In this document: positions 16,603 to 50,212 of the stretch, piece by piece
Position numbering within the stretch: position 1 is the stretch's first letter
Layout: each line of letters opens with the position of its first letter
The notes under the pieces: model-generated
What the model saw: only the letters and a program-made list of their open reading frames with translations
What the model was told of the DNA's origin: nothing
The model's database searches: none
Translations under genes and position numbers: made by a program
Assembly (NCBI GenBank): GCA_903813345.2
Contig: CAIIXF020000004.1
Location: 23,437,985 to 23,501,984 of the forward strand
DNA length: 64,000 nt
Direction: 5' to 3'
DNA from: Owenia fusiformis
Taxonomy: Eukaryota > Annelida > Polychaeta > Sabellida > Oweniidae

Positions 16603-19600
16603 AATTTTACTCCAAGTCTATATTCTAATAGGCTCTTAATATTTGGTAATGTTGTCCTAAGGTCAGGTGTGGAGAGACCACATGCATAACGTAACTGGGC
16701 AATGTCCTTGTTGAGTAGGAAAACACCATAGTTAAACTGAAACTTGTCTTTGCCTTTACTGTACAGGGGAAAACTGAAAAGTAAAACAACTGTTAAAGTG
16801 AGTCATTTTTCCCAAAAAAATCCTGAGATGTGGGTCAAATTTTGAAGAAGAAACCCTAGATATGGGTCCCATTTTGATAAAAAAATCCCTAGAACTGGGT
16901 TTACTTTTTGAAAAATCCTAAAACTGGGTACTGTTTTTGAAAAAAATCGCCGGAAGTGGGTCTTGTTTTTCAAAAATTACCTTGAAGTGGGTCTATTTTT
17001 GAAAGAAAAATCCTAGATGCGGGTCCACTTTTAGAGAAAAAATGCCTAGATGTGGGTAGATATTTTGAGTCTCAGCAACACCCCTCTGTACAAAAATCTG
17101 ACCCCCCATCTGTAAAGATTTCAAGTTGAATAAGTGAATTTCCTGGAATTTGATGACAACATCTATGAGGCAAAAATCCACTTGGTGTAGATTGAAAGTA
17201 TATCGAAACTGTCTACCAACATATTTGGAACTTCCAACACCTCCCACAACAACTTTTGTGGTGCCAATGGGGCTGTTCTAAGATTGCTTTACTATACATT
17301 TTGTAAAAATACAAAAAACAAAATTTAGTAGCTCACAAAAATTAACAAGATTACAGTACTTACTCTCTATCTTTATCAAGTAATTTATCTATAATATGGT
17401 CCCTTATCCGAGATCTAGAAACCCTGTGTTCTATGGCATAGCGTAGTGGGGTATCTATAAATTCTGCTATCATCTGGACCATGTGTGCTGAATAACCAAG
17501 AGCTACTGACACCATCATTTCATCTTGACCTAAAGCAATGCAAAAAGAACTATAAAAAGACTGTGTTCTATGGCATCATAATGGGGTATCTAGAAACCCT
17601 GTGTTCTATGGCATAGTGTAGTGGGGTATCTATAAATTCAGCTATCATCTGGACCATGTGTGCTGAATAACCAAGAGCTACTGACACCATCATTTCATCT
17701 TGACCTAAAGTAATGCAAAAAGAACTTTAAAAAGACTGTGTTCTATGGCATTATAATGGGGTATCTAGAAACCCTGTGCTCTATGGTATTACATATTGGG
17801 GCATCTAGAAACCCTGTGTTCTATGGCATCCCATATGGGGTATCTAGACACTCTGTGCATCATATAAAGGGGATCTAAAAAACAACTTTTAAAGATATAA
17901 AGATACTATAAAAATCTGACTATCTAATCTGACTTAATCATGATCTTATATTATAAAACCCCAAAACTAGCTTACCTGCGAAGTTTTCAGAATGAGGCAA
18001 TTTTACACCACATATAGTGTATCCAACATTGGGTGTCTCGATTATGGGATATATGAAGGCTAATTCAGAAACAAGCTGTTTTCTTCTTACTGCTAACTGG
18101 GCGTTCGATTTCAGAAACGATTCCCTGAAATTAACAGATTCATATCTCCATTAAGATTCCTGAATTTCATCCAAATCAAAAAACAGGAAAATGGTAAAAT
18201 ACATTTAATCAATGTCTCAATGAAATCAGAGAAGGTCCAAAATATAATTTAGTTTCATGTAATTTTCATTTTTTTGTTTTACTTACTTTCTGATCGGGCC
18301 TCGTACATGTATATTTTTTGTTTCGCGTAATTCTCTTTTACATGTATAGTTTTTTAAAAATGTTTGTGAAGATGTAATTGGGATATTCTGACTGTCCTCT
18401 CAGAATTAACTTCCTCTTTTATGTCAAAATACACTTCAAAAGTGCATTTTCTCTCTCATTCTCACAAGGCAAGATATTGTCAAGCTGACAAAAATAACTT
18501 AAATAACTTAAACCCTCAGTATAAAATGGAATTACAGTCTTGCCTTGAGGGAAAACATAGTTTTTTGTTTCACATCTTGCATAAAAATACACTTTTTTCT
18601 TTCTCTCACCATATGCTTTTTTGTTAATCTCTCATTGAATCAGAAATATGCTTATTCCACAATCTGACCTAAGGTATCAAAAGTACACTTAATTCTCACC
18701 TTGTATCAAAACACACTTATTTCACAATCTCACCATGTATCAAAAGTACACTTATTTCACAATCTCACCTTGCATCAAAACACACTTATTTCACAATCCC
18801 ACCTTGTATCAAAACACACTTATTTCACAATCTCACCTTGCATCAAAACACACTTATTTCACAATCCCACCTTGTATCAAAACACACTTATTTCACTATC
18901 TCACCTTGTATCAAAATATGCTTTTTCTCACGTTATATCAAAATACATACACTTTTTTCTTACTCTCACCTTGTATCAAAATATGCTTTTTTCTTATCGT
19001 GCAATCTGTCTTTATCTCTTTGAAGACTTTCATTTTTATTTCGTACTGCTACGTCTCGTTGATGATTGGTTGATTGCCTCTGCTCGTATTGCTCTTTTAG
19101 ACTTTGTAAATGCATCGTTCGCCATTCTAGGTCTGATCGTAGCTGGTGAACTTTTAGCAAGTACAGCTCCCGATTTGCTGTCTAGAACGAATGAATATTT
19201 AGAATGTTAACACCAAGAAGGTTAAAGGCTCTATGAAAAGTCAACTGTTCAGACTTTTGTTAATTATGCCGCTTAATCCAATGCGACAATATTGAGATTC
19301 ATAAAGTAACTTTAACACATCTATTTTAAGTTAAGGTTTAAGTAACAATTTTGAATAAGTGCAACAGAAACAACTTGTTTATTACACTTCATTATAAGCA
19401 TACCTGTACACTTCATTATAAGCATACCTTTTCTTCATTAGCTTGTGACAAGAGTAGCTTATCTTCTATATTAGATCTAACACGTTTTACAGATGCTTGG
19501 GTTTGAGTTATTGCACGAAGCACCATCTGAATTCTGAAAAGTAATAAAAGTTGTTTTTAAACATTTTTATTTCGTGTTACGCTTTAAAAATGTACAGATA

Positions 19601-22600
19601 AAGAAAACTTTGACTAACAGTTGTTAGTTTCGGAAGCAGAGATCCTCCCAAGTAGTAAACCAATTGAGCACTGCCATCATGATAATTCACCTCTCTCCCT
19701 CAACTCACAAATCACATCTCTTTTACAGTTAACCAGCAATAGATGATTACAAATAACCCATCGTCTGTTCCGCCTCATCATGTATCCTATAGGGACAGTC
19801 ACAAGGAAGCAATACAAATAACCAAAATATAAAACATGGACTTTTAAAGCTGGACTACGCTCCGAAACGCAATATGTTGACATATATTGTTTTTACATTT
19901 TCAAGCTCTAATATAAAGTTTATGTAAATAAAAATTGTTTTTTTCTGCGTAATATCAAAGAACAATCATTTAGTTAAAAAAATAAAAAGACTATGCGGGA
20001 TTCGAACCCGGGCCTCCCGCGTGCTCAGCGAGGATTCTACCCGCTACACCAACGTATTATTATGAAAGGAGGAAGTAATTAAACGCTACTTATTTTGAAT
20101 GTTATGATTCGGAAGTGACGTCACGTTCTTCATTTAGAAACCTTTCCAAAATCATATCGCCGGCACCGATCGAAGCAAATTCAATGAAAAATCTTTGAAA
20201 TGACACATTTATCGTAAGTATTTCTACACAAGATTTGCCCCATTTGTTCATCATTCTATAATCTTTCATTAAGCTCAAAATGATAAAGTTCACCCCCGAA
20301 ACAACCCAAGATTGCGTTTCGGAGCGTAGTCCAGCTTTAATGTACATACACATTTTTAAAATGTAAAATCTAGTATTGTTTTGAAGAAAGAATGGGATGA
20401 GACTTTGTTTTTTCTAATTCCCTCAAAAGGCTCAATTGTGTACCAAAAACACATATATTTTAATTTTCCACAAACTATATGCTAGGAAGTTTTTTGAATG
20501 CAGCATGGATATGGGAGAAAACACAAATCCACTATACATACCTTGATAGTGAACTAGTATTATATGATGTCCTGCAGACATTATTTTCCACCTCAAGGCT
20601 ACACTGGGAGATGTCCAATTCGGGCTCCTAAAGATCAAAAGAATTCATGATTTGACAATGTTTAATAACAATTGTTCATTCTATTGAGAAAATTATGAAA
20701 CTTTGTGATGTCAGAACTCCATATTTTCTCTAAAATTTTAGTGAACTACTGACAAGTACAATAGTGCCTATACTATCCGAAGTAATTACTTTTAACCTTA
20801 AACTTATTTATTCTATTTCTTACTTAGTCATTCTTAAAATTTCATTTTTCAATTCAAACATAACTTCATGTCCTAACTTAAAGAGGCAAATGGTGAAGAT
20901 CTTCCATGAATCTAAGGTCTGAGAGAATTCATCGACCAATCAGAGTCAACTTACTTCAGTTCCAGAAGGAGCACCATAGTAACCATCAAACATTCCAAAT
21001 ACCAGGCTATTAACAGGATAGGACTGACTCTCAGAGTGGAGCTGAAATGCAGTTAATATCAAAAATCAATAAAACAATTTAATAATGGGCGAAGCATTTT
21101 AACAGCCCAAATGCTATTTGCAAATGCACCATGTATTTTTCTAGCAAATTACAATATTGTAAATTGCAATATTTTAAATTTGGCAGATTTACAAGTAATT
21201 GTAGCATTTCAGATCATCCAAAAGGGGTAGCATTCAAATGCTTTAATGCTGGAGAGATTTGTATTTCAGAATTCGAATATGTGAGGTTTGAAATCCACAA
21301 AAACATGGAATTATAATTCTGAACCAAATAGAAGTGCTTTACACAATGTCATAAGTCCAGTACCAGCTAGCCATTTCAAACTAAACACTCACAAAAATTA
21401 ACAATTATTCTTAAAAAAACACATTTTGTCTTATGTCAGCAATATTTTACCTAGACAAATTTCAATGAGGCATTAACATGCAAAATGTCACCACCCACCA
21501 TTTGTTACAGATGCTGACCACCAAACACCAACCACAAAAAAGTTGGAGATTATAAAAATATGTCACTAAATAAAACAGTGTCAAAAGTCTGACTGAATTA
21601 TCAACTATTCTTAAAACAGTGTTAAAAGTCCCTTGTCAACAACATAAACCCACACAATTTTCAAAAAACAGTCTTACCTGATCACCCAGGTAGACAAGAC
21701 CTGATAGGTGGACTTTCCACTCTAGGACCAAATGTAGGGTGACATCTTTCACTTCACTCCACACTTTGATTATCAAATCTTCGTCAAGTTAAGAAATCTA
21801 AGTAATATTTTGGTAAATTTATTTACTCAATGAGGTACTGAATTTACTATTATCAAATCTTTGTCAAGTTAAGAAATCTAAGTAATATTTTGTTACATAG
21901 GAAATTTATTTACTCAGGTATTATATTTACTAATTATATATATATATTACTCAATGAAGTATAATTGTATTTACTCATTAATACATATGACTCAATGAGG
22001 TGTTATATTTACTCATTAATATATATTTACTCAATGAGGTATTATATTTACTCAGTAAGATATAATATTTACTCAATGAGGTACTGAATTTACTCAATAA
22101 GAAATAATAGTTACTTAATGAGGTATTATATTTACTCAATAAGATGTAATATTTACTCAATGAGGTACTGAATTTACTCAATAAGAAATAATATTTTCTC
22201 AATAAGAAATGATATTTACTCAATGAGGTATTATATTTACTCAATTTCATCAGAGACATCGATGTGACCTTGTTTGGAAAGAAATGTTAAATTTCTTATG
22301 GAATAGAAAACATGCTGAAGGTTGTTTCACAATTTCACAAAAAAGTTTACAAAAATGCATCATGCAGAACTACAAACTATTTATTTCATAATACCATGTT
22401 ATCTGTTGAATATTCCAAATGACATTTTCAACTCATTTTGAAAAAATCTTAAAAATGAAGGATACGTGAAGCAGAAGTGTTGACGGAATCTCTTAGACGA
22501 CCAAGTTCCAAACTTTTCCATGTCGGGTTCTGAAAAACAATAACAAACTCATTATATATTAAATTAAAACAGCATAAAAATCAGATTCTATGAATTCCGG

Positions 22601-25600
22601 TGAATTTGTTTTTTCGTGCACAAAATATATACCAAATGTTGCTTATATGGGAAGATATATACTAATAACATTCAAGCCCGTAGCCAGGGGGGTTCGAGCA
22701 AACCCCCCCTGGCCGAAAAATCTTTCAAAATCATGCAGTTTTTCACCATTCTGAGCACTTTTTAAGTGATTTTGGCCATTTTTGGACCAAAATTGTCACA
22801 AGTGAACCCCCTGGAATTTTTCAAAAAGTGTACATTCAAGCCCATAACCAGGGGGCAAATCCTGGCTACTGGCCTGACATCCCTACTAAATAACCCAGAT
22901 GCGAGTAGAAATAATCTTGATTTACGTCATTAAAAATTCAAAATTCAGTCAAAGTAATATCATATTTGAAATCTACATGTAAAATTACATCTAGAAATGT
23001 GGTTTTAAAAAGTGTTTATCAACTTTGAAAAATTAATTTTCTTTGAAAATGTGACTTCTAGCTCGGGGAGATTCCCCATAGACCCCATGCTATAAAATCA
23101 CAAAAAGTGAAATATCTTTTCTTTTAGTGGACAGATAATATTTTGCTTTACTGGACATATTTTCATTAGTATAAGTATCAGGCACATAAGGGTTATATGA
23201 AAATTGAGCCACTTAAATTGATAATATTCAAGTTTAAGGGAACTTTCTTATATACCTGCCATGTTAATTGACCCGAATCAGCCACCTGGTGGTGAAACTG
23301 GTAACTACCTACTCGCATTTGGGTAATTGGCTGATTTTGAAGTGGCAGAGATAAAACATATTTTATAATATATGAATGTTAATCACAACTAGAAAAACAG
23401 CAACTCCACGGAGTAGCAAATCCCACCTAACAAAACATGTTTTGATAAAAAAAATTGAGCCAAATTCATCCACTGGTATTTGAATTATCAAAGATTATGT
23501 CTTTATGAAACATGGTTGCCATTTTGAAATTCAGCTGTCATCTTTAGATTACTTCTTTAGCAGAGAATGTCCGTCCAATTGAATCTGGGTTATCAAAGAT
23601 TACTTTTTTAATGAAAAATGGCAGCCATTTTGAAATTCAGCTATCACCTTTGAAATTTCTTCTGAAGCAGATCTCCTTTTTCCCTAAACATCAGCATATA
23701 AAATTGGAACCGAATCCATCCACTAGTATTTGAGTTATCATTAATTATGTTTTTTTACGAAAAATGGTAGCCATTTTGAAATTCAGTGGCCATCTCGAAA
23801 ATTTATTTTTGAGCAGAACTTCTTTGTCTCTAGGCATCAGCATATAGAATTTGAACCAAATCCGTCAACTGGTATTTGAGTTATCAAAGGTTACGTTCTT
23901 TCTTGGTGGCCATTTTCAAATTTAGCTACCACCTTGAAAATCCCTTCTCGAGCAGAGCTCCTATGTCCCTTGGCATCAGCATCTAAAATTTAAACCAAAT
24001 CCATTCAATGGTATTTGGGTAATCAAAGATAACGTTTTTTACGAAAAATGGCCGCCATTTTGAAATTTAGCTGCAATCTTGAAAATCCTTTCTGGAGCAG
24101 AGCTCCTATGTCCCTAGGCATCAGCATCTAAGATTTGAACCAAATCCATTCAATGGTCTTTGTGTTATCAAAGATAACGGTTTTTTACGAAAAATGGCCA
24201 CCATTTTGAAATTTGGTGGCCATCTTGAAAATGTCTTCTTGAGCAAGGCTCCTTTGTACCAAGGCAACAGCATATAAAATTTAAACCAAATCCATCCACT
24301 AGTATTTGAGTTATTAAAGATTATATTTTTTCCGAAAAATGGCTGCCATTTTGAATTAAGCAGCCATATTGAAAATTCCTTCTCGAGCAGAGGTCCTACA
24401 CCCATAAGGCATAAGCCTATAAAATTTGAATGAAATCCGTCAACCGGTATTTGAGTTATTGCCCGGACACACGAACGGAAGAACGGACGGACGGCTTTTC
24501 TATATCCCCCTCGAACTTCGTTCAGTGGGATAATAAAGAAATGCAAGCTGAAGGCAGCAAAGATTAGAAACTAAGAGGTTAAAGAAAGAAAAAATAATTT
24601 TATAAAATATAATCGCGATATTATGATATTTTTATGGTAATAATTATAGGATATCCTATGATTTTGAGGAATATCATATTTATCTACGAGGTGATATTGA
24701 TATCTGCACGAGAGAGCAAAGCGAACGAGTGCATATATCAATATCACCGAGTAGATTAAAATGATATTCTGAAAAAAAAATCATAGGATGTTCGTATTAT
24801 CCTACACTTAAAAGAAGTGTACTAAATGTATAATATCATTGCAAAATGAATTTCATGCCAAATAGAGTCAATTTGGCGGGAAATCAACAAGCGGAGTATA
24901 TCGTCACAATATCCTCTGCATATTGGGTTTTCCCGAGTATATCGTCACGATATCCTCCGCCTGGAGTATATCATCACGATATCCTCCGGTTATTCATTTT
25001 GCCAATAGATATCAAATTTATTTTTTAATGTTATTATACATTTAGTACACTAAGTGTAGGATAAGTGCAGATATCCTCTTCCTCAATTGACCAAATTTGA
25101 ACATTTTACATCTAAGATCATCAACAAATCGATTTAGATGGGTATTAAAAGGAAATGTTGGCATAGATTCTTGAAAATATTGCTTCTAACATTTTACACT
25201 GACTCAATTTAGAGGAGGAAGAATTTGTGAAAAATAAAGTAGCAACCGGACCATTTTCAGAACTTCTCATTATGGAGTATGTTGTTAAGATGTTTAGCTT
25301 TCCAAAAATATCAAGAAACCCCATAGGGTTGGTAGATCCTTTTTTCCTTTAATATTTAGGACTTTTTAGTAAATCCCTACTCGTCTAATTCTTTGCTACC
25401 CCTTTAAAAGTAATTACCTGTGATCCTTGAATCCTCTCACTGGTGTAAAAAGCTGAAATAAAAAAAGTTTACTATGCATTGATATTATATACAAGACTAC
25501 AACCTCATTCAATTACGCAACATTGCTTACATTGATTTAATTTGTAAATAAATAGTAAATATGTTTTTAAATTATACTTTAAATTAAACATGATGAAATA

Positions 25601-33310: not shown

Positions 33311-35468
33311 CACATCCATATAGATCAAGATAACAACAATATTTTTGTATGTCAAACATTACAATGGCGGCAACATGATCGGAAGTTAAGCTTGATCACC
33401 TGATATTTAAGGAATGACAACATTATCAGTATATCACTGTCACACCTGCAATTGTATGATTGGTTCATATTGGGTCACATGTCATGAAAGATTAGGTGAT
33501 ATTCACTGGCATTGTAAAATTGAACCAAATCTGTTCACTGGTATTTGTCTATTTAAGTGATCAAAGATTATGATTTTTAAAAAAAAGGTCGCCATTTTTT
33601 ATTCACCATCTTGAAAATTCTTTTGGGAATTCCCCCGAGATATTAACAGATCAAAAATTCCCAGATAATGAGGATATTTGGGATAGGCTATTATAAACAT
33701 TTAATATAATCAAGGATAAATTACAGAGTCATAAACATGCATGACCCCAGTTGTGATATAATTATTTTTTGTGACATATGAATTGTAAATAATATTATAG
33801 ATATGATACAGTACATACAGTACTCGTATATATCTACACAATTAAATAATAAATTGAATTATTTTATCCTATATCTTGTCATGTTATATATACAATAAAA
33901 TGATTACATTAAAACTTAGAAAATAACGAGACACTGTGAAAAATACTGCACTTTTGATGGCAAATGTAATTTACCCAGCATGCCCAAAAACTAATCAGAT
34001 CTTGGCACTAGTTTGCTCTTGCAGTTTGAAAATTTAAAGTTGAATGGTAAAAGCGGTTTTCCTAAAACTTTGATAACAAGGTTTATGTGGCTCAGTGCCC
34101 TGCACTTAAAGTTTACAATCAGTTTACAGACACAGTGTTACGACTTCTCTTACAGTTAATTTTTAGGTTTCTAGGGATACGTGTATGGGGGAATAAACCA
34201 GATTTTCAAAATGTAGCCTTAATGAACAAAACAATATCTTTACTTTATATACATATATGATACATATATTTCCAAAAATCCTAACTAAAGTACATATACA
34301 ATTATTCATTTATATATTATACTTTGTATATTATACACAAAAAGCAGATTACATGTCTAGTATATAACAGTTCAGTTGTACATTCTTCTTTAAACATGAG
34401 AGAAATGAGCACATGTCTTGTTTTTCTATAGCGATTCTCTCTAAAATTTGAAAGATCTACTGAATTTTCTTTCATTTCTATACAATTTAGAGTGTTCAAT
34501 ACATGCCTATTTATTTTATTCCTTTCTGATTCCACTCTTTTCCACTCTACTTTGCAGTTGAAATTATGGCCATCTTGTCTGATTTTCTTGCATTTCTATA
34601 CAATTTAGAGCGTTGACTACACGCCTGTTTACTTTATTCCTTGCTAATTCCACTCTTTTTCACTCTATTTTGCATTTCAAAACATGGCCACCATGACATT
34701 TCTTCACTGGGTAAAAAGAATGACACTAAAGCAATAAATATTCAAAACAGCTGGAAATAATTATTATCATACATTGTAATTCTTTTATTAAAATACAAGT
34801 ATAGAGATACCTTAAATTCAATTAGCATGCAGAATGGCAGACATTTCATGTCATGATATTCATGTTAAAATTGAATTTTTCACTCACAAAAATTATGTTT
34901 CTAAAAATAAAATAAAACTTTAAATAATACACCATCCAACAATCAAAAGTGGATTTTTTAATCAATCAGAAGCACACTTAGTAACCAATCAGAAGTGAAC
35001 TTATCCACCAATCAAAAGTACATGTACAAGTATTAACAAATCAGAAGTGTACATGTACTTAAAATATATTTTAATATCTTTTGGTATCTGTTTTTTTTTC
35101 TGAGCAAATACAATGTCTCTTCCTATCTTAATCCAACCAAATTCCCAAAATTCTCTCTAAAACATAAACAAAATCTTAATTAATTGCATTTCTTTACAAT
35201 TTAAAATGTCTGTCTGCTTATACTTAACAATATATTTCACTCTATTTCTCTGTAAAATTTGAATAAAGTGTTTCATTTCCTTGCATTTCTACACAATTTA
35301 GAGTGTTTACTACATGCCTGTTAACTTAATTCCTTGCAAATTCCACTAATTTCTACTCTATTTTGCATTTTAAAACATTTCATGACCCCAGTGACCTGTA
35401 ATTTGGCAATGTAAAAAGTCTATACCTCACACAGTAAAATACAGTATCTACACATTACATGTTGCTCT
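33311..35468. other. Intergenic DNA between convergent LAMTOR4 and SAP130
   Basis: Contains decayed units of an interspersed family (34400-34690, 35180-35390; GCATTTCTATACAATTTAGA, CACTCTATTTTGCAT), which returns at 42610-42920 in a SAP130 intron, and a short stretch of CCAATCAGAAGT repeats at 34940-35050. No gene is seen. Confidence 0.55.
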
Positions 35469-35474
35469 TTTTAT
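35469..35474 (-). terminator. Possible SAP130 polyadenylation signal
   Basis: AATAAA on the minus strand 30 bases past the SAP130 stop codon. This is a very short 3' UTR if used; other candidates lie further downstream. Confidence 0.4.
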
Positions 35475-35503
35475 TATACTATTATACAGACTTATGAAAA
35501 ATT

Positions 35504-38500
35504 CTATGATCGTTCCTTCTTTTTCACAGGTCGTTTACTGTGATGTTTTGTCACAATTTCCATAATACGAGATTTATGTCCCAGAATTCCAAGCATTGAA
35601 TCGCGGGCCTCTTCCAATTGTTCGATAACCAGCTGACATCTCTGAATGTTGCCCTGGAATTTAGTTCATTCAAAATATAACAAAATCGATGAAAGAAGTC
35701 CAAATGTTATTTAAAGTGGAATATGAAATCAAAGGTAAAATATTAACTAAAATTACACTGGTTGTATTATACGTGCCAATTCATAAAATATCAATGTAAG
35801 TTCATAAAATATTGATGTCAGTTCATTTGTGTCATTTCATTTAAAACATGTTCATATGTGTCAGTTCATATAATACCTGTGTCAGTTCATACAGCACCCA
35901 TGTCAGTTCATCCATAGAGTCAGTTAATTTAACATCAGAGTCAGTTCATATAATACAAATGTCATTTCATTTAACACCTGAGTCAGTTCATATAATATAA
36001 ATGTCAGTTCATATAATACAATGTCAGTTCATTAAATACCTGTGTCAGTTCATGCACCATTGTGACATCATCATCCAGAGGGAGGTGTTTCACTTGAGAT
36101 TTTGGGGCAACCTGGGCCTGGATCTCCTTTAACTTCTTCCTAACATTTTTCTCACTGTCCGCCTGCAAGCAAAATAAATATTAGGGACATGTTTGAATTG
36201 TGGGATTAAAGGGGCAACAAGGACTGTAGAGAGAAAATTGGAAATTTTTTATTTTTTCTGAGCCATCAGGTCAATATTTGGCTTAACATCTTCTTTGACA
36301 TACCTATTTTCTTCAAATGTATAAATAAACTCTCAATTTCAGCATTAAGAAGTGTAAAGTCAGTTCAAAGCTTCTATAAAGGGAGTCCCACTTATAGATT
36401 TTTAAGATTCGCCACGTTTCAAGAGGAATAACAGCTGAAATAATGTTCATCCAGGGGGTTTCTTTGTAGATAATGAAAATATATGTTAGTCTTGATGAAA
36501 TATCCAAACTTAAATATATTTTAACACTGGTCGATGATCGTTGAATGCCCCCCCCCCCCCCTGCACTAATTGTTGCACCTTTAAGTTACCCTTTATTGGA
36601 TTGGAGCTATAAGGGTATGAACATTCTGCTTAAAAGCAATATAAACATTGGTGACATTGACTTTTGCAAAATCAATCAAAGTTACTTGAATTGTCATAAA
36701 ATTTCTTGCTATGCTTATTTATTACACCTTTTTTGGTGACATGGTTTTCAAAAATTATTTGTTTCACAATTTTTCTCAAACAATTAAAATTACATAAGAA
36801 GCTACTATTAGATTGCATATTCTGAATAAATGAAACTATTTCAGTAATAGATAAATTTCTTCATTCAAGAAATGTTGATATTTACAATACACAACATATA
36901 ACACATGAGCACATACCATGTCCTCCAGCTGTGCTGCCAAATGGTATAATCTCCAACCACTCGCTTTTTGCCCGATTCCTTTCTGATTGGACAGTTCATT
37001 CACTGTTGGTCTACGCTCATCTGGAACAAATTGTACGAGAGTTAATTTTTTATTTATAACATGAGACTATTTATTAGTATCTTTCAATATAATTTTTACA
37101 AGATATTTTCACTCAGGGATTATATTAGCCTTGCCCAAGTTAGTCTCTCTAACTTATCTTGATTTCTATTATGACCATAATAATTCAAGATCAGATAAGT
37201 AAAAAAACACCGGCTTGGGCAAGGCTAGGATTATATTTTTTTATTGTCTTTCTGTGTCTTGGAAAGGATGACTAACTTTGAATTACTAATAAATGGAGTA
37301 TTACTGTACCACTCTGAAATAGTGACCTTCAAAATTAATCGCAATTTCCTTTAGTCTCATAATATTGCTCACCATGCTTATTGTCTAAATAAATGACAAA
37401 ATAACTTGTCTCTTTAAAATTCACACACTGTTACACATATTGAGCATATTTACAAAAGACATAATTGCCAAAAATGACAGATGACAGTCGCAAAAATGGT
37501 GGCTATATCAGTATATCACAACTTGATTTGAACATATTTGTTCATTAATGCTTTACCTTTAGGTTTCACATCGACGTATCTAACAAAATGGTTGTTCCGA
37601 GCTTTCCAGTTACAATGGTAGTTTGTGAGTAAACAGCCAGAAAATCTCTTCCTCATTCGTACCCAGCGGACACCCTCATCATCAGTATACTCTGAAAGTA
37701 GCGAATAAAATATATCATTATCCCACAGAATAAAGATCGGTAAGAGTACAGACAAGCTGTCCTTCCGTTCAATCACTCATTGGTTGATTTGTCAGTTCGG
37801 GTAATGACACAAATACCGGTTGACAGATTTGGTTCTAATTTTATAGGCTGGTGCTTTATGGACATTGATGTTGAGGGAATAAATAGATCAGCAAAATACA
37901 CTGATCACCTCAGCATTCATTGGGGTGTTGCACCTGCTTGAGAATTTGAAAACAGGATTGCACCAACTTGATATTCAGCTTTATTTTTGCATATTATGAC
38001 CAAATATAGAAACTGTGAAAAAAGAAATCTGCATACACTTGACTTAAAAAGGTCAGCGAGAGCCCTGCAAAGCATGTTAACTTTTAGACAATGGCTATTG
38101 CATTTAAATCTCATGTAATTTTAATCAAACCAGGCATTTTGGAGATTGACTATAAATGTATCCCATTTTATTTCAATCATACCTTCAGGCAGCTCATCTT
38201 TTTCATCAAATGTTGTATCAATGTCCTCATCCTTCTCAATATCTGAATCAGTGGAGGAACTGTCCTTTATCTCATCTTTAATCCTGGGGAGAATAAATAT
38301 GGGGTTATGGTTATTTGCCAGATAAAATAGGCAAAGGGATAATGCTCGAAATTGTTCAGAAATGCCAGGCAGTGCCGCGCATTAACATGCAAAATGTCAC
38401 CACCTGTCATTTGTTACAGACATTTACTGCTTATATAGATACCCAACACCAACTGCCGAAGACCATCCACAAAAATTGGAAACTATAGCAATATGTCACC

Positions 38501-41500
38501 ACTTCTGGTGGTGACATAGATATATTTTACAAAAATGTCTTAAAGGAATATAGCTTTAAACAACTTTATTCATTTCTTTAGAGAAAACAATTTTAAATGT
38601 CTCAATGATTTTTTGTCATGAAAATTAATATTTGGTTCATTAAAAATATTATAAAACTGCATGGGGCCTTTAACTTACCTAACACTGTAAGGGGTGGGCA
38701 ATACAGGTTTGTTATCTCCCTCTACGCCTTCTATGCCATGTAGCAGCGACCTGGAAAGGAAAAGGTTAAATGTGAGCCAGAGATGCGAGGGTTAAATAAT
38801 GATAGACTGAACAAAGTTCTCAAGGAGGTTTCAGTAAAAATTCTGACAACTGATATTGTTGGAAACTAAACAGTCAAATATGGGAAAGGATTCCTGTCCC
38901 AATAAGCTTGCGACTGATTTTACAGCATATTCATGTATGATCTTGTTTCTTCATGTTTGTTTTTTATTTATCAAAACATCTCCCAGAAAATGCTTACTTG
39001 TCATCAGGAGTCCAACAGGGCACTTTAACTTGGTCAGAAGCTTTGGTTTAAAAACTGTTCGGTTTAGGTTTTTACTGTTTATCAATTCAGAAGAATTCAA
39101 TAATAATAATTCAAACAAATTTCATAAAACCAGTGAATTGATGATAGAGAATTTTCCAGTGCACATCATTTTAACTGATTTCTTGGTGAATGAGGTTGGT
39201 CATTTTTGCTTGATTCTAGTAAACATTTGACAAGTGGGTAATTTTTGCTTGATTCTAGTAAACATTTGACAAGCGGGTAATTTTTGCTTGATTCTACTAA
39301 ACATTTGACAAGCGGGTAATTTTTGCTTGATTCTAGTAAACATGTGACAAATGATGATAATTACATGTCTTCAATCATTTATTCTTTCTATAAATATTTA
39401 ACTACTTACAGTAATTGCTTTCTTGGTTTTTTCCTAGGGGACATCTCAACACTGTTGTTATTCAAACCATTTGAGATGGGCCCTAAAATGATATAGATTA
39501 TGTTTAAATATACAAAAGAAAAAATGAATTTTAAATACAGAATATTTGAAAAAACTTTTTTCTTAAAAATATATGATGAAAAATGCAAAAGCTACAAATA
39601 TTCTACAGGATTACAAAAATAAATAAAGAAGTCATTCAAATTTGGCAAATCATGTGACCCCCAGAATGTTAGATACACACATAAGTAAGCACCCTGGCAT
39701 GAGAATCTTTAACCTTTACTTCTTTCCACAATTGCACTCAGTGAGCTGAAGATGGTCAAAAGAGCCAATTTCTACAAAATGGGGCTTTAGGAGCCAAAAC
39801 AAATGGTGTAAGGTATTACCAGAATGGAGCCCTTAAAATGAAAATGAGTGCTGGATAAAATGAATGGAACTTTCATTTGCCCAAAAATTGCTGACAGGTG
39901 AATACACTGACGAATAGGTGAATCCATAGGCTACTAGCCAAAAAATAATACAAAGAATATTCCATCTGACCCTTAGCACATTCTCCCACATACCATTTTC
40001 TAAAAGATCTGGTTCTGTTTTGATTTTCACTGTTTCATCTCCAAGTCCAGTTTCGTTAGATGTGGCCGTGTCTGTAGATGATTGACTATTTTCCCTGGCA
40101 GGGTCGCTGGAATATTACATGGAGAAATATAAGTGCATTTTATATTACAGGAAAAATCTTGTTTTATCAAGCGTCAAACCTATCCTCAATCGCTATGTTC
40201 AATCATGGATATTTCATCCTCAATGATACAGGACATGTAATGAAATAACTACTTTAAATTTGGCAAGTTATGGCTATTTTTGCGCCAAATAACGAATTTC
40301 ACCTTGACTCTGCACAATTTATTATCTGTAATAAATGAAGTGTATGAACTTTAATTTAAAAATAAGACCAGTGTCAAGACCCTTTCGTGATTTTCTTTCA
40401 AACTAGATCCAGTTTTTGTAAGCAACCTAGCCTTATACAACTTACAGTGGTGGTCCAGGTTTTGTAGGCGATACACTTAAAGTTCTCGGAGCAAGTTCCT
40501 GCATCGGACTGCTTGTTTCACTTCCAGTGGGAGTAAGAACTTTTTTCACTTTGTCAATGAGGGTCCTGAAGCACAATCAGAACAATCAATATGGCACAAT
40601 CAAATTAACACAATCAAAAGATATGGAACAACCAATATGTCAGAATTAATTTGATTGTTTAAAAATTGGGTTCTCTTCTGGCAAATCAAAGTTGATGCTG
40701 TAACAATCAATACAGATCAACCAATTTGGCTTATAACACAATCAATAAGCAATCCAAACTATTTATGGCACAATCAACTGTTCTGGCACAACCAACTGGC
40801 AAACTCAGTGGAAATCATTATACATGTATCCATGGCTCAATCAATGAAACCAAGGTGAAGCAGAATATATACAAAATTTTTCGAGAAATTTCAAACCTAC
40901 CCCTCGAGGGTCCTCTTTCTGAGTATACTTGGTCTTGGTGACGCACTTGGGTTGGCTATAGGTTGATTACTAAGTCCACCAGAGCTTGTATGTGATGCAC
41001 TGTCAGTCACCTGGGTTTGAACTAAAATACAAACAATTTCCTTTCTATTTAACAAGTCATATGCAGGGGATAGCTTTTGGTTTTAAAGCGTTGTGTAAGT
41101 GTCAGACTCTAAAAGGCCTTGGTCTCTAAAACTCTTACACTTTTTTCTTTTTTTTTTTAAATTGTAACTGTCAGAATTCATTAAACTTTTCATGTATTTT
41201 GGAATTTACGTAATAAGACAAAGGCACTGAGCTATTTAAAAATAGAAATTGAAGTTACAATAACACCATAAATCACAATCACCATACATCGTAGTGCCAA
41301 CCACGAACCTCAAACAGAATGTTTTAACAATATTTTACAAGAACACAAATGTGTACAAAATGTCCCAACCAATGGGTGATCCCATCAAATGGTTATCCTG
41401 AAAATGGGTAGACAAGACTTTACCGACACAATTTGAGGACGGAAAATCCAAAATGGCCACTTTAAAAATTCTTACTTGATGTGGGAGCATACTGGCTATG

Positions 41501-44500
41501 AACAGCTAAAGGACTCCGTGTCGGGTCAACAGCCACCATCATTGGGTTATTGTAACTTTGGAGACGTGGACTACTAGAGATAGTCTGAGATTGTAGCGCA
41601 GTAGCCAGGTTAGGGCTTTGTGTATTTGGTACTGGAACATAAGTGGTAATTTAATGTAGTTATAACGTTGGAGACGTGGACTACTAGAGATAGTCTGAGA
41701 TTGTAGCGCAGTGGCCAGGTTAGGGCTTTGTGTATTTGGTACTGGAATATAAGTAGTAATAATTAAATGTAGTTATAACTTTGGAGGCGTGGACTACTAG
41801 AGATAGTCTGAGATTGTAGCGCAGTAGCCAGGTTAGGGCTTTGTGTATTTGGTACTGGAACATAAGTGGTAATTTAATGTAGTTATAACGTTGGAGACGT
41901 GGACTACTAGAGATAGTCTGAGATTGTAGCGCAGTGGCCAGGTTAGGGCTTTGTGTATTTGGTACTGGAATATAAGTAGTAATAATTAAATGTAGTTATA
42001 ACTTTGGAGGCGTGGACTACTAGAGATAGTCTGAGATTGTAGCGCAGTAGCCAGGTTAGGGCTTTGTGTATTTGGTACTGGAATATAAGTGGTAATTATC
42101 AAAAAGTATCACCCTAAATCATCAAGTGTTACCCTAAATCACAAAGTATCACCCATAATCACCAAATATCAAACTAAATCACCAAGTATCAACCTAAATG
42201 TCATGGGGTTATTATGATCACGTTTCAAATTAAAAGTTCAGGTAACAAAGTACAAGCATTAAAAAAATGTGACACATAAAATTATAATGCATCTCATTGA
42301 AACTTATAAATTACCCAACTTTACAACAATTGTTTCATCTATGTGATCTTAAATTTATAAGAATGATGCAAAATATCCATTTTTACAGCCCACTCTGTAT
42401 TTACCTATACTCTGTCTCACTCCTTGTGCAAACGCATGAGCTACAGCAGGACTATATGATAGGGGGTTGTAGCCAAGTGGTAAATTGGCCAGTGTAGGGT
42501 GAGTGTTCCCATAAGTAGCGTAAGTGGCAAAGTGTTGCATATCTTGGTACTGTTGGCCTACTTGTTGGGAAATCTGGGATCGGCTGAAAAACAAACAAAT
42601 AATTTTCATATTTTATCTTTTCTCTCAAGTCTGTATGAAATGTCTGATTTTTGACTTCACATATTTCTGTACAATTTAGAGTTTTAATATTACTATGTGT
42701 CACTTAACTTTATTTCTTGCTAATTCTACTCTCTTTCACTCTAATTTGTATTTTAAATCATGATCACATTGTCTGATTTCTTGGCATTTCTATACAATTC
42801 AGAGGGTACACTACATACTTGTTTACTTTATTCCATGCTGGTTTCACTCATTTCCCTCTAAAATTTGAATGGAGTGTCTGATTTTCTTGGCATTTCTATA
42901 CAATTTAGAGTGTTGACTACATGTCTGTTAACTTGATAATTTCAAAAGTATGCAATAAATTTGAGATCAGCCAGGTTCTATGTTCTGATTGGTCAGACAT
43001 TGATGTTATGCTTGCCTATAATTTTGTGCGAATAATACAATAATCTTACCTATCAGAGCGGATGTCAGTGTGTACATTTGTGGTTGCCGTAGAGACCCCT
43101 GTACTGAGACCAGGACTTCCCCTATGACCCTGACCTTGGAAAATAGTCCCGAGACCAGATTGAGTAGTGCGAGTGTCATGTGACAAGTCACGCGAATCCT
43201 GGGACATTTGTCGTTGAGGATGGACCTTAGCTGGAAAATTCAAACAATGTAAATGCTGTTATTGTCTGACATTGATTGAAATTGTTATAATTCTTGGTGC
43301 CAATGCTACTTGTGCCATGTAAAAATGCATATTGCAAAAATCAATGTTACTTACATCTTATAGATGTTCAAATACTAAGTCATTAAAATCTCAAATTGCG
43401 ATGACAAAAAGTGGAATGTCAATGTGTCCATGTGAATACAATTGTTATAGTGATGATTGGCTTTATCACAGTAAAATTAAAATCTCATTTTAAACACAAT
43501 GCAGACCATGAGACGTTCATTTATAGTATTTCATATATCTTTTAAAAATATGAATTCATTTATTTCTGTTTGTGTTTCCTTATCTTACCTATAGGTATGG
43601 CCGGTGCGGAAATTGTTGTCACAACTGGTGCTGACCCCTGGTGGACCGAACTATTTTGAAGTTGAGGTAACACTGAAATAAATAAAGAACGGATAACCCA
43701 AATTTGGATGGATGAAATGCCTTTTAAGACCTCAAAATCAAGTAAATCATTGCATTACTGTATCATAACATGCAGAATGTCACAACCTGCCATTTGTTAG
43801 AAACACTCAGACCACAAAAAGTTGGAGACTATAATCATATGTCACAATTTCTTGTGGTGACACAATTAAAAGGTATTATTGATTAAAACGACATGATGTT
43901 GTAATCCAATGATCTGAAGAATCAGAACTATAAATGGATACACAGAGGGCAGACTGGCAGTAGCGTTTCAGTCAGACTAGATAGAATAAGTATGAGTACC
44001 AGGTATGAGTACCACGTATGAGTAACAGGTATGAGTACTAGGTATGAGTAACAGGTATGAGTACTAGGTATGAGTAACAGGTATGAGTAGATGTTGCAGA
44101 GATCTCACCAAATTTTTCATAACAAGGTGCTAATTTTGAGCAGGGTGCATGCACCTAATTGCTCAAATGCTGAGTGTACCAATTACCAATTAATGTTTTC
44201 AACACCACACCTGTTTTTATGATCTGTTGCGGCAAAGACGAAACGGTTTGTTGTGACATCACAATCTTCTGTTGCGGCTGAAGCTGTTGGTTTATGACGT
44301 GCGTCTGGTTTAATTGCATTGGTTTGTTAATCTGCTGACTGCCACTCACCGCCCGGGGGATAATATCAATATTTGTACGAGGTTCCAGTGTCCGTGGTTG
44401 TTGTATGGTGATTTGAACTGTTGTCGTGGTTGTGCTGGGGATATGGGCCCTAAAATGAATTGTGACACATTGTGTTCATAGTACAATTTATTCTGACTTC

Positions 44501-47500
44501 TACGGTTTTGATTGGCTAATAGAATGAAATGCTTTATCTGATTGGTTAATGTAATGCAATGGAATGAAACAACACTTCTAAATGGTTGATGAAATGCAAC
44601 ATTAAATCTGACTGGCTCACTGTAAACCTGCATAGTATAAATGCGGCAGTTCACTTGTCACTGGTAGAAAGTCATTAATCACACATCTGGTGTTCTTGCA
44701 CATGCGTAGTGGTAATAAAATCTGTCTTAGAAAATATGGCTGTGGTGTTTGAAGGCTATGTCATGTTGTCTGGTAAGCTTAAAATCTATGATTTCTACCG
44801 ACATTTCTCTGTCTAAACTTATTACCTTATTATCTTATGATATTAAAGACTTGCTGAATCATATTTATTTGGTCATTATGTCACTATTTTAAATGTATCA
44901 GTTAATATGAAATAGATGTTTTTTTCATTTTTGAGTGTACTTTTCCATCATATTTTCTATATTTTCCTACTTTTTTTTTCAGAACTTTTTTCACAGTGAG
45001 AAACAATGGGGTATTATGAAACAATATCACTTCAAGAAAAGTGTACATTATTTTGTTTAAAGAAGATATTGTCATTTTAATTGAGTAGGTGTTGGCCAAA
45101 ATTGATATTTTTAATATTGGTTTGAATTAGTGTTGTCGCGATTAATCGATACATCGCGATATACATCGCCAAACCTGATTCTGGCGATGCATCGATGTCT
45201 AAAACAAAACATCAATGTTTTTAAAAAAAATTAATTTGCTAAAAATCACCATTTCTTATCTTATTTTGACCCAAATCGCTTACCTTTCTCATGTCTTATT
45301 TCATTTTCTGATGTTTTCTGATATTCTTTCGCTTTAAAACTGTTTTAGTTAGTCGAAATGAACCATTGATCTAAAACAATTTACTTTACTTTCATTTCAC
45401 CGTTACTAGAAGTTCCCGGATGTACTAGCGTACTCTTATTAATTTGTTCTGTTCAGTATTTTAGTGCATTAGCGTTTGGTATTTCAGTGCATTTTTCTCG
45501 GACTTTTTCTCGATGTACATCGCGATGTGCATCGATGTTTACTACTGAAAATTGCCGATGCATCGATGTACGATTATGGCACATCGCGACAACACTAGTT
45601 TGAATAGGCAACATTGAGCTGTTGCTTGCAGAAAACAAGTGATATATCAAAGGAAAAAATAATGTAGAAAATTGATTTAGATGAGCAGAAAGAAGAGAGT
45701 TTTAAGTACAAAACCATCAAAAAATTATAGGATTCAAAAAGTAGAATCAATTAGAAAAGTGACTTTTCATGCAAATATGTACTAAAATTAAAATTTTATT
45801 TATGTACTAGGGTTTCATTTACAAAAGATAGATACAATGAAATGTGTTAGAATTCGGTTGATTATGATTGGAATTTGTAAACTTTTTTTACATCTATGAA
45901 TTACTAATTGATCATTCTTTTTACTTATTGCAAAAGTTATATTTTCTAAGTAAGTTTAAATGAGTAATAACATGAAAAGAGATTGCGGTTTAATTAACCA
46001 AAAGTGGCTATAGCATTAACTTTCTACAGTGGAAGACTGTTTGACCTACTAGTAAACAAAGCTAAGAACTGGATATAAGGCTAATTAATCAAAACAAGCT
46101 TGACAAGCGAACTGCCAGCTTAGGTTTACAGTGGGCTGAGAGAATGGGACTCTGTATCTGATTGGTTGATAAAAAGCAGAACTGAACCCTATTGGCTGAC
46201 AGAATGCAACAATGTATCTGGTTGGTTGATGTAATGCTACATAAATATAATTGGCTTACATTATGAAACAAAGAATCTGATTGGTTGATATAATGCTACA
46301 CTGAGCCAATTGGCAGATAGAATAAAACATACCTGTGTGCATCTGTTGATATAGAACTTGAACTTGCAGCTGGTACAACAGTACGATTGATAGGTGGAGT
46401 CACTGGTCTTAAATTTGTAGAAACAAATGATCCCCTTGGTTGTATAGGTGTAGGCATCACGTTGCTGGAACTACTTTTAGTTGGCAGCACAATACTAGGC
46501 TGAGATGGGTGTAATACGGCTGTTGCTAGGGTAACACCTTTTGGGTTTGTGAGATTAGACACTTGGGCTGCACCTAAGAATAAAGCATAAAAATAATTCT
46601 GAATAATAATTAGATATAATTTTCCATGAACATTGTGATTGTTGTTATATATGTTGTCAAATCTAGTCTGTAACTAGTGTGGTAGTATTTTCCTCTTATA
46701 TCTAACTTTTTTAGTCTGATAGAATAAAGCATACAAATAATTCTGAATAATAATTAGTTATTTTTCTCCATGAATATTGCGATGACGGTTATATGTGTTG
46801 TTGAATCTAGTCTTTCACTAGTGTGTGACTATTTTCCTCTTATATCTAACTTTTTTAGGCTGTTAGTACTCATCTCTAGTGTGTAATTACTCACCTCTTG
46901 GCAAATGTGTAGCATAGGCTTGAGTGGATGGATGCTGCGATACTTGGACAGAGGCCCCCTTTATAATAGATGCCATTGGTACAGTCACCTGCTGTGTGGT
47001 TCCACCAGACATCACCTATTGTAAAAACGAATCTAATTGGCTAATGAAATGAAACATACAATTTGATTGGTTGATAGATGCCATTGGTACAGTCACCTGA
47101 TGTGTGGTTCCACCAGACATCACGCTATTGTAAAAATGAATCTAATTGGCTAATGAAATGAAACATACAATTTGATTGGCTGATAGATGTCTTTGGTACA
47201 GTCACATGTTGTGTGGTTCCACCAGACATCACCTTTTGAAAAAACGAATCTAATTGGTTGATAAAGTGAAACATACAATTTGATTGGCTGATGTGCCATT
47301 GCCAGTACCATGCTGTGTGGTTCCACCAGACATTACCTATTGTAAAAACAAATCCAATTGGTTGATGAAATGAAACACCCAATCGGATATTATGCATATA
47401 GTGAACAGTTCAACTGAGTCATCAGGTTTCCTTTCAATTAAGTTATTTAATGGCATGAGTAAAATACAAAAAATATTATGCGTAAGGAAGTCTGTATTTC

Positions 47501-50212
47501 ATGAGGCACACAAATATATGGCTAATGAGGAGATCAGATTAATGGAAATTTCATCAAGTTGTGACACTTATTTGACAAGAATGTAAATTGTAAGATCATT
47601 GGCTGATTGAATAAAGTATTAAATCTGATTGGGTTAAAGAATAACTATGACTGAATCTCATTGGCTGATGACAGATAATATTTTGATTCAGCCAATGGAA
47701 TGTAACAATAAATCTGATTGGTTGACAGAATGTACCTGTGGATGTAATGGTGTGGTATGCCGTATTTGAACTGGCTGGGCAGGGGTCGCTTGTACTTGAG
47801 TTGTAAGTGTACGTCCAGTCTGACTGGAGCTAAGATTTATGGGTACAGCATTCAATGATGAATGTCCTCCCTGCTGTGCTGCTTGGAGCTGAGCTGCCTG
47901 GGTATCAACTTGGTTTCCCATAACTGCAATTTAAAGGAGAATGCTCATTATGAATATTATGAAATAAACATATCTACTTCAGAATTTTTTGTGGCATTCA
48001 CTGATTGTTGGCTCCCTCTATACATTTGTTTCATTTAAAAAGATATTGAACGCTTCTTTAAAATAAAACAGGACAAGTACATAGCAAAGAAGCTATGGTG
48101 TCATTTCCTATTCTACTATGATGTCATTTCCTATTCTACTACAGTATTATGTCATTTTCTATCCTACTATGATGTTATTTTCTATCCTGACCTTATTCTA
48201 AAAACAAATATGGGGGATGACATTCACCGTACAATATTCCAATTGTCTTACTTATGTAACTATGGTAACAGATTTGATGCAACTATAGCAACAGGCATTT
48301 GAATTCAGGCCAGGGGGGGTTCTCCCAAAGTTCAGCCTTCGTATTCGATCACGTGGTACCCATGTGCTAGATCCATATAAGGCTTACATGACCATATAGG
48401 ATGGCTAAGGGGAATCCCCGAATACGAAAGAATATGATAGTATTATGGAAGCTACTCACTTCTTCTGAATTCAGGCAATCATAAATCAGAACTCAAGAAA
48501 TAGACCAATAGGGACTTACCTGTTAATTTAGGCACAAGGGTTTGTGGCTGTCTGTTGATTTGAGTCTGATAGCCTAGACTTGACTTGATGCAACTATAGC
48601 AACAGACATTTGAATTCAGCCAATCATAAAGCAGGACTCAAGAAATAGACCAATAGGGACTTACCTGTTAATTTAGGCACCAGGGTTTGTGGCTGTCTGT
48701 TGATTTGAGTCTGATAGCCTAGACTTGACTCGATGCAACTATAGCAACAGACATTTGAATTCAGCCAATCATAAAGCAGGACTCAAGAAACAGGCCAATA
48801 GGGACTTACCTGTTAATTTAGGCACAAGGGTTTGTGGCTGTCTGTTGATTTGGGTCTGATAGCCTAGACTTGACTTGATGCAACTATAGCAACAGACATT
48901 TGAATTCAGCCAATCATAAAGCAGGACTAAAGAAATAGACCAATAGGGACTTACCTGTTAATTTAGGCACAAGGGTTTGTGGCTGTCTGTTGATTTGAGC
49001 CTGATAGCCTAGACTTGACTTGATGCAACTATAGCAACAGACATTTGAATTCAGCCAATCATAAAGCAGGACTCAAGAAACAGGCCAATAGGGACTTACC
49101 TGTTAATTTAGGCACAAGGGTTTGTGGCTGTCTGTTGATTTGAGTCTGATAGCCTAGACTTGATCGTATGTTACTCGCTATTTGACTGGTTATTCCAGAT
49201 GATTTTAGCGATGCCTGGAACAAAATTAAAATACAAGGCAATTTATGGACGCTTAAACTCTATCTCAAATTCTCTTTCTCTGATCAAATCTGAATTGTCT
49301 ATCTCTTATACCGTTTAAGGAAATTATGTAAGACTTACTTATTCTTTTTAAAAGATATACAGTGAATTCTGTCCAAATCCAAATACAACATGGGCTGGCC
49401 CAAAGTGTTTAGATTGGCAGGTGTTCACATGTGATGTGTTTCAAAAATCAAAATCTACTTGCAAATTGCAAAATGGAAATTTAAAATGCAGTCACGTCGA
49501 GAGGTGTTCAGATGAGAGTGTACATTTTTTTTACTAGATCACATACCTGAAAATGTGACCGAATAGTCTGGTCAATATGCACAGGTTGACGAAGTATATG
49601 GGTAGGCTGTTGTTGGCTGCTCGGGTTCAACTCTGGTTTCTTACCTAGAAATAATATCATTATCATGAATCTCCCTGAGTCTCTCATACGCTGAAGCCGG
49701 CGGGACAGTTAATTATTGTATGATATTTTAGTATGTATATTGTTAACTGCAGTGTGAGACTTTTATTAACTACTAACTGTTATGGTTTTGGATTGTGATA
49801 ATGGTACGTGAATGGTAGGAGATTGGGTGTTGGACATGGTTTCTTTTCATTAGACCCTTGCTATTTTAATCCCAATATTTATTACTAAAAGGTTTCTGAC
49901 TTCCTATTCCTTGTTTGTATCCAGTTTTATGTATTTTCTCAGAGTTTTACCACAAATAATGTGACAAAAATGTAAAATTAGACTCCGGAAAAAACAATTT
50001 AAACTCCAAAAAAGTTATTAGACTCTGGAGCAAGAGGGTTTTAAGGCATAAGACGCCGGAGATTTTGCTTGGCTGCTTGAAAAGAAACACTCAATTCGAT
50101 TGGCTGGTCGATACCACTAATATTTCAACTGGATTGCTTAATCATGAGAAAGGTATAACTTACCACCAGTGCTGCCACCTTTTGAGTTCACAGGGTTTAT
50201 GTTGCTACTCAT
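35504..50212 (-). CDS. SAP130: SAP130, Sin3A-associated protein 130
   Basis: SAP130 is a subunit of the Sin3-HDAC corepressor. Twenty-one coding exons, all GT-AG, join in frame to 920 residues plus stop: 50164-50212, 49547-49644, 49100-49214, 47736-47923, 46895-47015, 46333-46573, 44211-44449, 43589-43672, 43050-43230, 42405-42583, 41476-41631, 40901-41021, 40446-40565, 39994-40106, 39410-39482, 38679-38750, 38183-38283, 37557-37691, 36917-37020, 36040-36162 and 35504-35653. Family marks are THLPRG (~186), SPRPSILRKR (~577), a VKIKTEP sumoylation-type site (~655), MSPRKKPRKQ (~681) and the conserved C-terminal region (DDEGVRWVRMR, NWKARNNHFVRYVDVK, KGIGQKASGWRLYHLAAQLE, GNIQRCQLVIEQLEEARDSM). 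The middle is low-complexity Gln/Thr/Ser/Pro. Start is the ATG of MSSNINPVNS; an untranslated exon lies at about 51100. Confidence 0.96.
35800..36039. repeat. Minisatellite made of SAP130 exon 20 end plus donor
   Basis: The penultimate coding exon ends GCATGAACTGACACAG and its donor begins GTATTTAATG. The intron then continues with about ten copies of an 18-22-bp unit TATGAACTGACANNGTATTA, some reproducing TGACACAG/GTATTATA or TGACTCAG/GTGTTAAA. The last ~13 exonic bases and the splice site have been amplified. Confidence 0.9.
39195..39350. repeat. 39-bp tandem repeat in a SAP130 intron
   Basis: TTTTTGCTTGATTCTAGTAA followed by ACATTTGACAAGCGGGTAA occurs four times (unit starts near 39221, 39260 and 39299 for the AAACATTT word). 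It is not derived from an exon. Confidence 0.85.
41632..42095 (-). pseudogene. Four tandem copies of the SAP130 acceptor and exon start
   Basis: The true exon (41476-41631) begins at TTCCAG/TACCAAATACACAAAG. The block with acceptor and about 80 exonic bases (reading VPNTQSPNLATALQSQTISS) recurs upstream at TGTATTTGGT positions 41731, 41843, 41953 and 42067, periods 110-114. The units alternate between two variants (GTTGGAGACG and CTTTGGAGGCG), so the array probably grew by doubling a dimer. Every copy keeps AG, but no copy has a donor, and each frame ends in a stop after LQSYNYI. Confidence 0.92.
42610..42925. repeat. Interspersed ~120-bp units (TATACAATTTAGAG family)
   Basis: Three decayed units with CTTGGCATTTCTATACAATT and CACTCTAATTTG words, the same family as 34400-35390. 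Confidence 0.55.
43985..44095. repeat. 22-bp minisatellite GAGTACCAGGTATGAGTAAC
   Basis: About eight copies of AGTANNAGGTATG. Read on the minus strand they are not donor-like. It lies in the intron after the SAP130 exon 44211-44449. Confidence 0.85.
44460..44620. repeat. GATTGGCTGAT-type ~40-bp repeats in SAP130 introns
   Basis: Units of the form CTGATTGGTTGATGTAATGC recur here, at 46130-46330, at 47030-47390 and at 47590-47730, in different introns of one gene. The word contains CCAAT on the minus strand. Units are diverged and interspersed with exon-edge copies. Confidence 0.65.
45128..45597. mobile_element. 470-bp hAT-type MITE with 8-bp target duplication
   Basis: Termini TAGTGTTGTCGCGAT and ATCGCGACAACACTA are flanked by identical GTTTGAAT at 45120-45127 and 45598-45605. 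The subterminal regions are full of CATCGATG/CATCGCGATG palindromes. An 8-bp duplication is the hAT superfamily hallmark. It lies in a SAP130 intron. Confidence 0.9.
46579..46860. repeat. ~140-bp direct duplication in a SAP130 intron
   Basis: GAATAAAGCATAAAAATAAT to CTCTTATATCTAACTTTTTT (46579-46712) is repeated at 46723-46858 with point changes. It lies just upstream, in gene direction, of the exon 46333-46573 acceptor. Confidence 0.8.
47016..47390 (-). pseudogene. Three tandem copies of the start of SAP130 exon 46895-47015
   Basis: The exon begins TAG/GTGATGTCTGGTGGAACC and reads VMSGGTTQQVTVPMAS. The same segment, up to about 45 exonic bases and the preceding ACAATAG-like border, recurs ending near 47124, 47233 and 47340, with period about 105-110 and GATTGGCTGAT sequence between copies. 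The copy ending 47124 has a changed border (CAATAGC); the copies lack a donor. Confidence 0.88.
48500..49095 (-). pseudogene. Four tandem copies of a SAP130 exon end with its donor
   Basis: The real exon (49100-49214) ends AAATTAACAG with donor GTAAGTCCC. A 145-bp block with about 60 exonic bases (GGCTATCAGACTCAAATC, QPQTLVPKLT) and the donor is repeated downstream with donors at 48515, 48660, 48805 and 48950, the true one being at 49095: an exact 145-bp spacing. Copies are about 97% identical and retain the consensus donor. A TTGCTATAG upstream in each unit could act as acceptor, but joining it to the exon frame meets a stop. Confidence 0.93.

Follow-up and report, generated by a model that had tools for sequence, protein, structure and literature searches.

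In two neighbouring annelid genes, UVRAG and SAP130, several introns carry, at their start or end, tandem copies of the border of the exon next to them. We asked whether these are ordinary minisatellites that happen to reach an exon, duplications retained for a role in splicing or the product of a process that favours exon borders, and how a regular mRNA could be made in their presence.

Exon-border arrays in UVRAG and SAP130

The window, the whole 64,000-nucleotide stretch of DNA analysed here, contains both genes on its reverse strand (Table 1). The joined UVRAG exons align with residues 3–451 of human UVRAG (7bl1 chain; E value 1.8e-109), and the joined SAP130 protein contains the SAP130 C-terminal domain PF16014 (E value 7.7e-44). 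When the joined exons of the window are translated, the exon-proximal (innermost) splice sites yield continuous frames for both genes, and the SAP130 exon ends at 41476 and 36040 given in an earlier note on this DNA are correct. A search of the genome with the PF10186 profile returned no match, yet the joined UVRAG protein matches PF10186. A run of N at 16001–16500, which may be an assembly gap, separates UVRAG exon 12 from the next likely exon. No tRNA was detected when the window was scanned. Reading by eye points to a putative small plus-strand gene at 31942–33310, divergent from UVRAG, that resembles LAMTOR4.

Table 1 Genes and exon-border arrays of the window
Feature	Position in window	Strand	Description
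UVRAG exons 1–12	16603..30971	-	452 aa of protein; joined exons aligned to human UVRAG
UVRAG exon 11 (17529–17364), acceptor array	17413..17811	-	175-bp unit
UVRAG exon 9 (19181–18970), donor	18694..18970	-	34-bp units; array 18694–18916
UVRAG exon 8 (19533–19428), donor	19383..19429	-	24-bp GT...ACAG unit x2; weak case
UVRAG exon 5 (21778–21678), acceptor	21769..21937	-	one 80-bp duplicate; ~10 exon bases
SAP130 exons 1–21	35504..50212	-	920 aa, no internal stop; joined exons and PF16014
SAP130 exon 20 (36162–36040), donor array	35858..36053	-	degenerate 21-bp unit
SAP130 exon 11 (41631–41476), acceptor array	41553..42097	-	110/113-bp unit
SAP130 exon 6, acceptor (46573) array, additional	46577..46866	-	144-bp unit x2
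SAP130 exon 5 (47015–46895), acceptor array	46966..47377	-	108-bp unit x3.8; 3 copies
SAP130 exon 3 (49214–49100), donor array	48466..49163	-	145-bp unit x4.8

The arrays in the window are real. With Tandem Repeats Finder (TRF), and counting a border as strictly spanned when an array covers at least 3, 5 or 8 bp on each side of it (all three thresholds give the same result), six of the eight junctions at which the earlier note had reported tandem border copies are spanned: the acceptors of UVRAG exons 5 and 11 and of SAP130 exons 5 and 11, and the donors of SAP130 exons 3 and 20. The UVRAG exon 9 donor is not TRF-spanning under the strict criterion and passes a looser one; its array is set about 54 bp away from the border on the intron side, the first decoy lies 65 bp into the intron, and the units copy the last 22–26 exon bases together with the donor at 73–85% exonic identity. 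At the UVRAG exon 8 donor, two identical units lie flush with the site, and because each includes only 2 exon bases this is not an exon-edge duplication proper. The additional array at SAP130 exon 6 likewise abuts its exon, stopping just before the true AG and containing no exon sequence. A donor-flush array elsewhere in the genome (L152:2132–2268, gene strand; 34 bp x4, 100% identical) shares with that of UVRAG exon 8 a unit that starts with GT and ends in ACAG.

The eight units hold 2–117 exon bases, from exons of 101–212 bases, and one splice site each. The true donor of SAP130 exon 3, after 49100, is accompanied by decoy donors after 48955, 48810, 48665 and 48520, all four of which keep GT (exonic identity 95–97%), and the true acceptor of SAP130 exon 11, before 41631, by decoys before 41741, 41854, 41964 and 42077, all four with AG (97–99%). 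UVRAG exon 11 has a single decoy acceptor, before 17704 (97% exonic identity), with degenerate 40-bp sub-repeats beyond it. The description of each array as one true site beside decoys that keep AG or GT therefore holds for many copies, but not for the nearest decoy of SAP130 exon 5 (47123), which has lost the AG that the next two keep, nor for SAP130 exon 20, where a unit of about 14 exon bases plus donor retains GT in four of nine copies and has lost it in five. Unit lengths run from 21 to 175 bp rather than the 18 to 145 bp first put forward.

Two of these units were traced through the genome. Apart from its own array, the SAP130 exon 3 unit matched just one remnant of 38 bp, which lies in that same intron, and none of 106 other matches in the search with SAP130 exon 11 falls inside the repeat unit (40 of 1159 candidates scored); nor did any second copy of either region match in the assembly, with the same 40 of 1159 candidates scored for exon 11. 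Because they match only their own locus, both units are local duplications. This locus specificity, together with the differing lengths and sequences of the units, bears out the view that the arrays arose as separate events. Beside the exon 11 donor, window positions 41400–41470 hold a dispersed repeat found in at least 39 other places at 91–97% identity. Two arrays whose 162-bp units closely resemble one another occupy window positions 215–707 and 7166–7780, separated by about 7 kb; their longest open frame is 71 codons, and no gene was identified in them.

On its own, the window does not establish that borders are spanned more often than chance allows. Six of its 27 arrays span a border. When each array was collapsed to one unit and placed at random across the region, 2.79, 3.08 and 3.28 spanning arrays were expected for the 8-, 5- and 3-bp thresholds (P = 0.043, 0.069 and 0.093), and placement within the array's own intron, the stricter null, raised the expectation to 4.91, 5.53 and 5.95 (P = 0.34, 0.49 and 0.59). 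Because units of about 100 bp in introns of mostly 200–1000 bp will frequently span a border by chance, the window count is unconvincing alone and is compatible with chance on the own-intron null.

Border spanning in a sample of five gene families

The genome assembly comprises 498.3 Mb in 525 contigs, with 477.5 Mb in contigs C1–C12 (31.9–62.2 Mb). Exons were found, blind to repeats, through the CCT, kinesin, AAA, aldehyde dehydrogenase (ALD) and myosin head (MYO) families, as best-scoring candidates only for the last four and without that restriction for CCT, and a matrix seeded on the introns of the window served to call their splice sites. The sample consists of 291 exon matches with 582 exon ends, 521 called borders (61 of the 582 ends have no called site) and 116 arrays. 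It leaves out four CCT matches on the short contig C222, 17 kinesin matches to copies of a single exon, which is itself represented once, a random 10 of the 80 remaining myosin exons, and twelve similar myosin-head exon matches that lie in a row on one strand at C9:37986009–37994334, cover profile positions of about 18–84 and have the look of a mutually exclusive exon cluster within a myosin gene.

Border-spanning arrays recur across unrelated genes. In the pooled sample 22 of 116 arrays span a border against 8.01 expected, a count that 0 of 200,000 simulations reach, and with edge correction the expectation rises to 9.60 (P = 5e-6). At least one intact decoy is present in 19 of the 22, the exceptions being L023, L030 and L137. 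Consistent with this excess, control points in introns, 100–400 bp from a border, have a spanning rate of 0.0067 and borders one of 0.040 (21/521), a ratio of 6.0. The two parts of the sample differ (Fisher P = 0.023): CCT and kinesin contribute 19 spanning arrays among 83 (5.19 expected; border-to-control ratio 10.3), whereas AAA, ALD and MYO contribute 3 among 33 (2.82 expected, P = 0.57; ratio 1.2). The pooled excess thus rests on the CCT and kinesin genes. Restricting the count to chained borders, with arrays at unchained borders scored as misses, gives 6 observed against 3.59 expected (P = 0.13). The earlier argument that random minisatellites should not so often contain a splice junction is accordingly upheld by the pooled sample and by neither the window nor AAA, ALD and MYO alone.

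A count that does not depend on the splice-site caller places 27 of 582 exon ends in arrays, 22 of 366 for CCT and kinesin and 5 of 216 for AAA, ALD and MYO. It includes arrays at L041, L111 and L154, the degenerate arrays L023 and L030, the donor side of L028 (which falls among decoys belonging to the following exon), the flush array of L152 and two short repeats, on the acceptor side of L023 and at L067. Some border arrays escaped the caller but could be recognised by eye (L041, another in L070, L111 and L154); these stand outside the 22.

Several of the sampled arrays are striking. In a kinesin gene on C2, the true acceptor is preceded by 17 decoy acceptors with a 159-bp period, each carrying about 127 exon bases that are 95–97% identical to the real exon. 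Those 127 bases belong to an exon of about 175 bases (its end placed by eye), and a unit comprising a whole exon with both splice sites, as in tandem exon duplication, was found neither here nor among the eight window units. Arrays at L034, L072 (acceptor), L073, L097 and L111 have 3–6 decoys whose exon parts are 97–100% identical to the real one; L072 has arrays at two borders, an acceptor and the donor belonging to the next exon match. Unit length reaches 259 bp, in the myosin gene at L154.

Conservation and turnover of the decoys

Across 26 arrays, AG or GT is kept in 105 of 120 decoys. Mismatches to the true acceptor number 7 of 68 at each of positions -2 and -1, and mismatches to the true donor 3 of 38 at +1 and 2 of 38 at +2, compared with 2–5 of 38 at the three flanking bases to each side, so variability at the decoy AG and GT is roughly that of the neighbouring positions. 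Further into the intron (+6 to +12) donor decoys mismatch more, at 5–12 of 38, which leaves room for weak constraint on the donor GT. Of the 119 intact decoys, 92 would introduce an in-frame stop if used and 10 would shift the frame (102 together); the remaining 17, in five arrays, would be in frame without a stop.

Differences between decoys and exons are enriched in synonymous changes. Among changes private to some decoys, 24 are synonymous, where 11.8 would be expected (P = 1.3e-4), and 24 nonsynonymous; among those that separate every decoy from the exon, 11 are synonymous (5.2 expected, P = 0.006) and 10 nonsynonymous. The test has sites that are partly non-independent and omits UVRAG exons 5 and 8, L026, SAP130 exon 20 and arrays with a single usable decoy. 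The pattern is as if the real exon and its copies exchanged sequence and the variation came from the selected exon copy; it could alternatively reflect occasional translation of decoys. Copies near the exon showed no consistent tendency to be more alike (among 17 arrays with at least three copies, the correlation is negative in 10 and positive in 7), and centring of the border in the unit (P = 0.046) is too weak to use.

Origin of the arrays and relation to known systems

We consider it probable that these arrays are duplications of exon borders that expanded as minisatellites and are tolerated through exon definition by the innermost splice-site pair. A short segment containing an exon–intron border (of 21–175 bp in the window and at most 259 bp in the sampled genes) would be duplicated in tandem and then expand into a minisatellite on the intron side. 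The full exon would retain its own intact border, and the duplication would thus be nearly neutral, provided that the innermost pair is still used: the splicing machinery would pair the innermost acceptor and donor and leave the mRNA unchanged, with the extra half-exons acting as decoys that have one splice site and lack the other. Decoys would be replaced over time, through renewed duplication and through exchange in which the real exon copy takes part, and some cause would favour borders in certain genes. The first-AG scanning rule predicts use of the most upstream decoy acceptor, and acceptor arrays therefore offer a sharp test of exon definition.

The chief rival is that the genome simply has dense intronic minisatellites, whose long units take in the borders of short introns by chance. 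This would suit the window under own-intron placement and the AAA, ALD and MYO genes, both in count and in control ratio, but it sits poorly with the pooled excess, edge-corrected or not, and with same-intron control points being spanned about six times less often, and we think it unlikely. Still less probable is that selection keeps decoys as splice-site buffers or alternative splice sites, roles that the earlier note had raised. Retention of AG or GT in most decoys, the synonymous excess and the 17 readable decoys would fit such selection; since AG and GT are not better conserved than their neighbours and 102 of 119 decoys would truncate or frameshift the protein, these functions are left unsupported.

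The same raw event underlies the Rogers model, in which introns are newly created by tandem duplication of exon segments; the model, with its intragenic tandem duplication that copies splice-like sequence, is documented for other species in the accessible part of PMC3443670. Here, by contrast, the copies of a border that was already present extend an intron that was already present, with no change to the coding sequence and no sign of a new intron; moreover, each of the six strictly spanning window arrays occupies one end of its intron and stops short of the other, instead of a duplicated segment flanking the intron on both sides, and we regard intron creation as highly improbable. Insertion of transposons or introners that bring splice sites with them might be suspected from two window arrays that look alike by eye (23589–24459 and 59040–59960) and from the 259-bp myosin unit at L154, part of which resembles the repeat at window 34464–34690. 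Yet the units hold the gene's own coding sequence, and the two searched, those of SAP130 exons 3 and 11, are confined to their own locus rather than dispersed, which makes such insertion scarcely credible.

Beyond tolerated border duplication, we entertain as a tentative possibility that borders in some genes are duplication hotspots, through a cause such as a transcription- or splicing-linked lesion. Decoys and exons would then exchange sequence, exon ends would evolve in concert with a reservoir of non-coding half-exons, and innermost-pair exon definition would override first-AG scanning in the face of up to 17 near-equal competitors. If some 2–6% of exon ends carry near-perfect decoys, they would constitute a natural experiment on how the spliceosome chooses its sites. 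The arrays also provide material for testing the origin of new introns and alternative exons, and a warning for gene predictors and short-read aligners.

The phenomenon itself is already known. Tandem repeats that span exon–intron borders are described in amphioxus Adh3 under the name mirages in the available text of PMC3087553; the globins BflGb6 and BflGb9 add two genes, TnC is also listed (PMC3087553, PMC3902484), and PGBD5 is a further one in the accessible part of PMC3902484. As far as these texts extend, mirages are minisatellite-like tandem duplications at donors or acceptors, as here, with units of 10–160 bp and AG or GT in many but not all copies (PMC3087553, PMC3902484). For the globins, the portion available describes differences between haplotypes, RT-PCR evidence that splicing is regular and an intron-gain model (PMC3087553). 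The annelid arrays share the main structural features, with units spanning the border at six of eight window junctions and in 22 arrays at 521 sampled borders, and with splice dinucleotides kept in many decoys and lost in others. The unbroken UVRAG and SAP130 frames obtained from the innermost sites would be indirectly in keeping with undisturbed splicing. Mirages were proposed as raw material for new introns in the available part of PMC3087553, and the window arrays could possibly serve in the same way.

The arrays described here differ from amphioxus mirages in being sampled over gene families with a chance control, in including one array with 17 decoys and in their host, an annelid rather than a cephalochordate, to judge by three matches to the annelid linker family PF16915; the host is a difference of range, not of structure. 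In the open-access literature searched, a scope that leaves out most subscription journals, we found no report of mirages outside amphioxus, and the accessible parts of PMC4039745, PMC2206037 and PMC12153100 contain nothing on border arrays. This looks like a second animal lineage, to which, if true, an amphioxus curiosity would extend. Internal tandem repeats at exon–intron boundaries, in the available text of PMC2812944, also affect gene structure in human segmental duplications; those concern young paralogs with altered transcripts, whereas the arrays here lie in conserved housekeeping genes. MIRAGE1 (PMC9071541) is a transposon that resembles mirages in name only. Searches of the genome for GFP and COX1 gave no match, and the GFP search gave none in any control genome. 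An amphioxus source is judged unlikely from base composition, from the annelid linker matches and, weakly, from the negative GFP search. GC content is 35.0% over 185,521 sampled bases and 39% at third positions of coding matches; the amphioxus genome has a GC content of about 41%.
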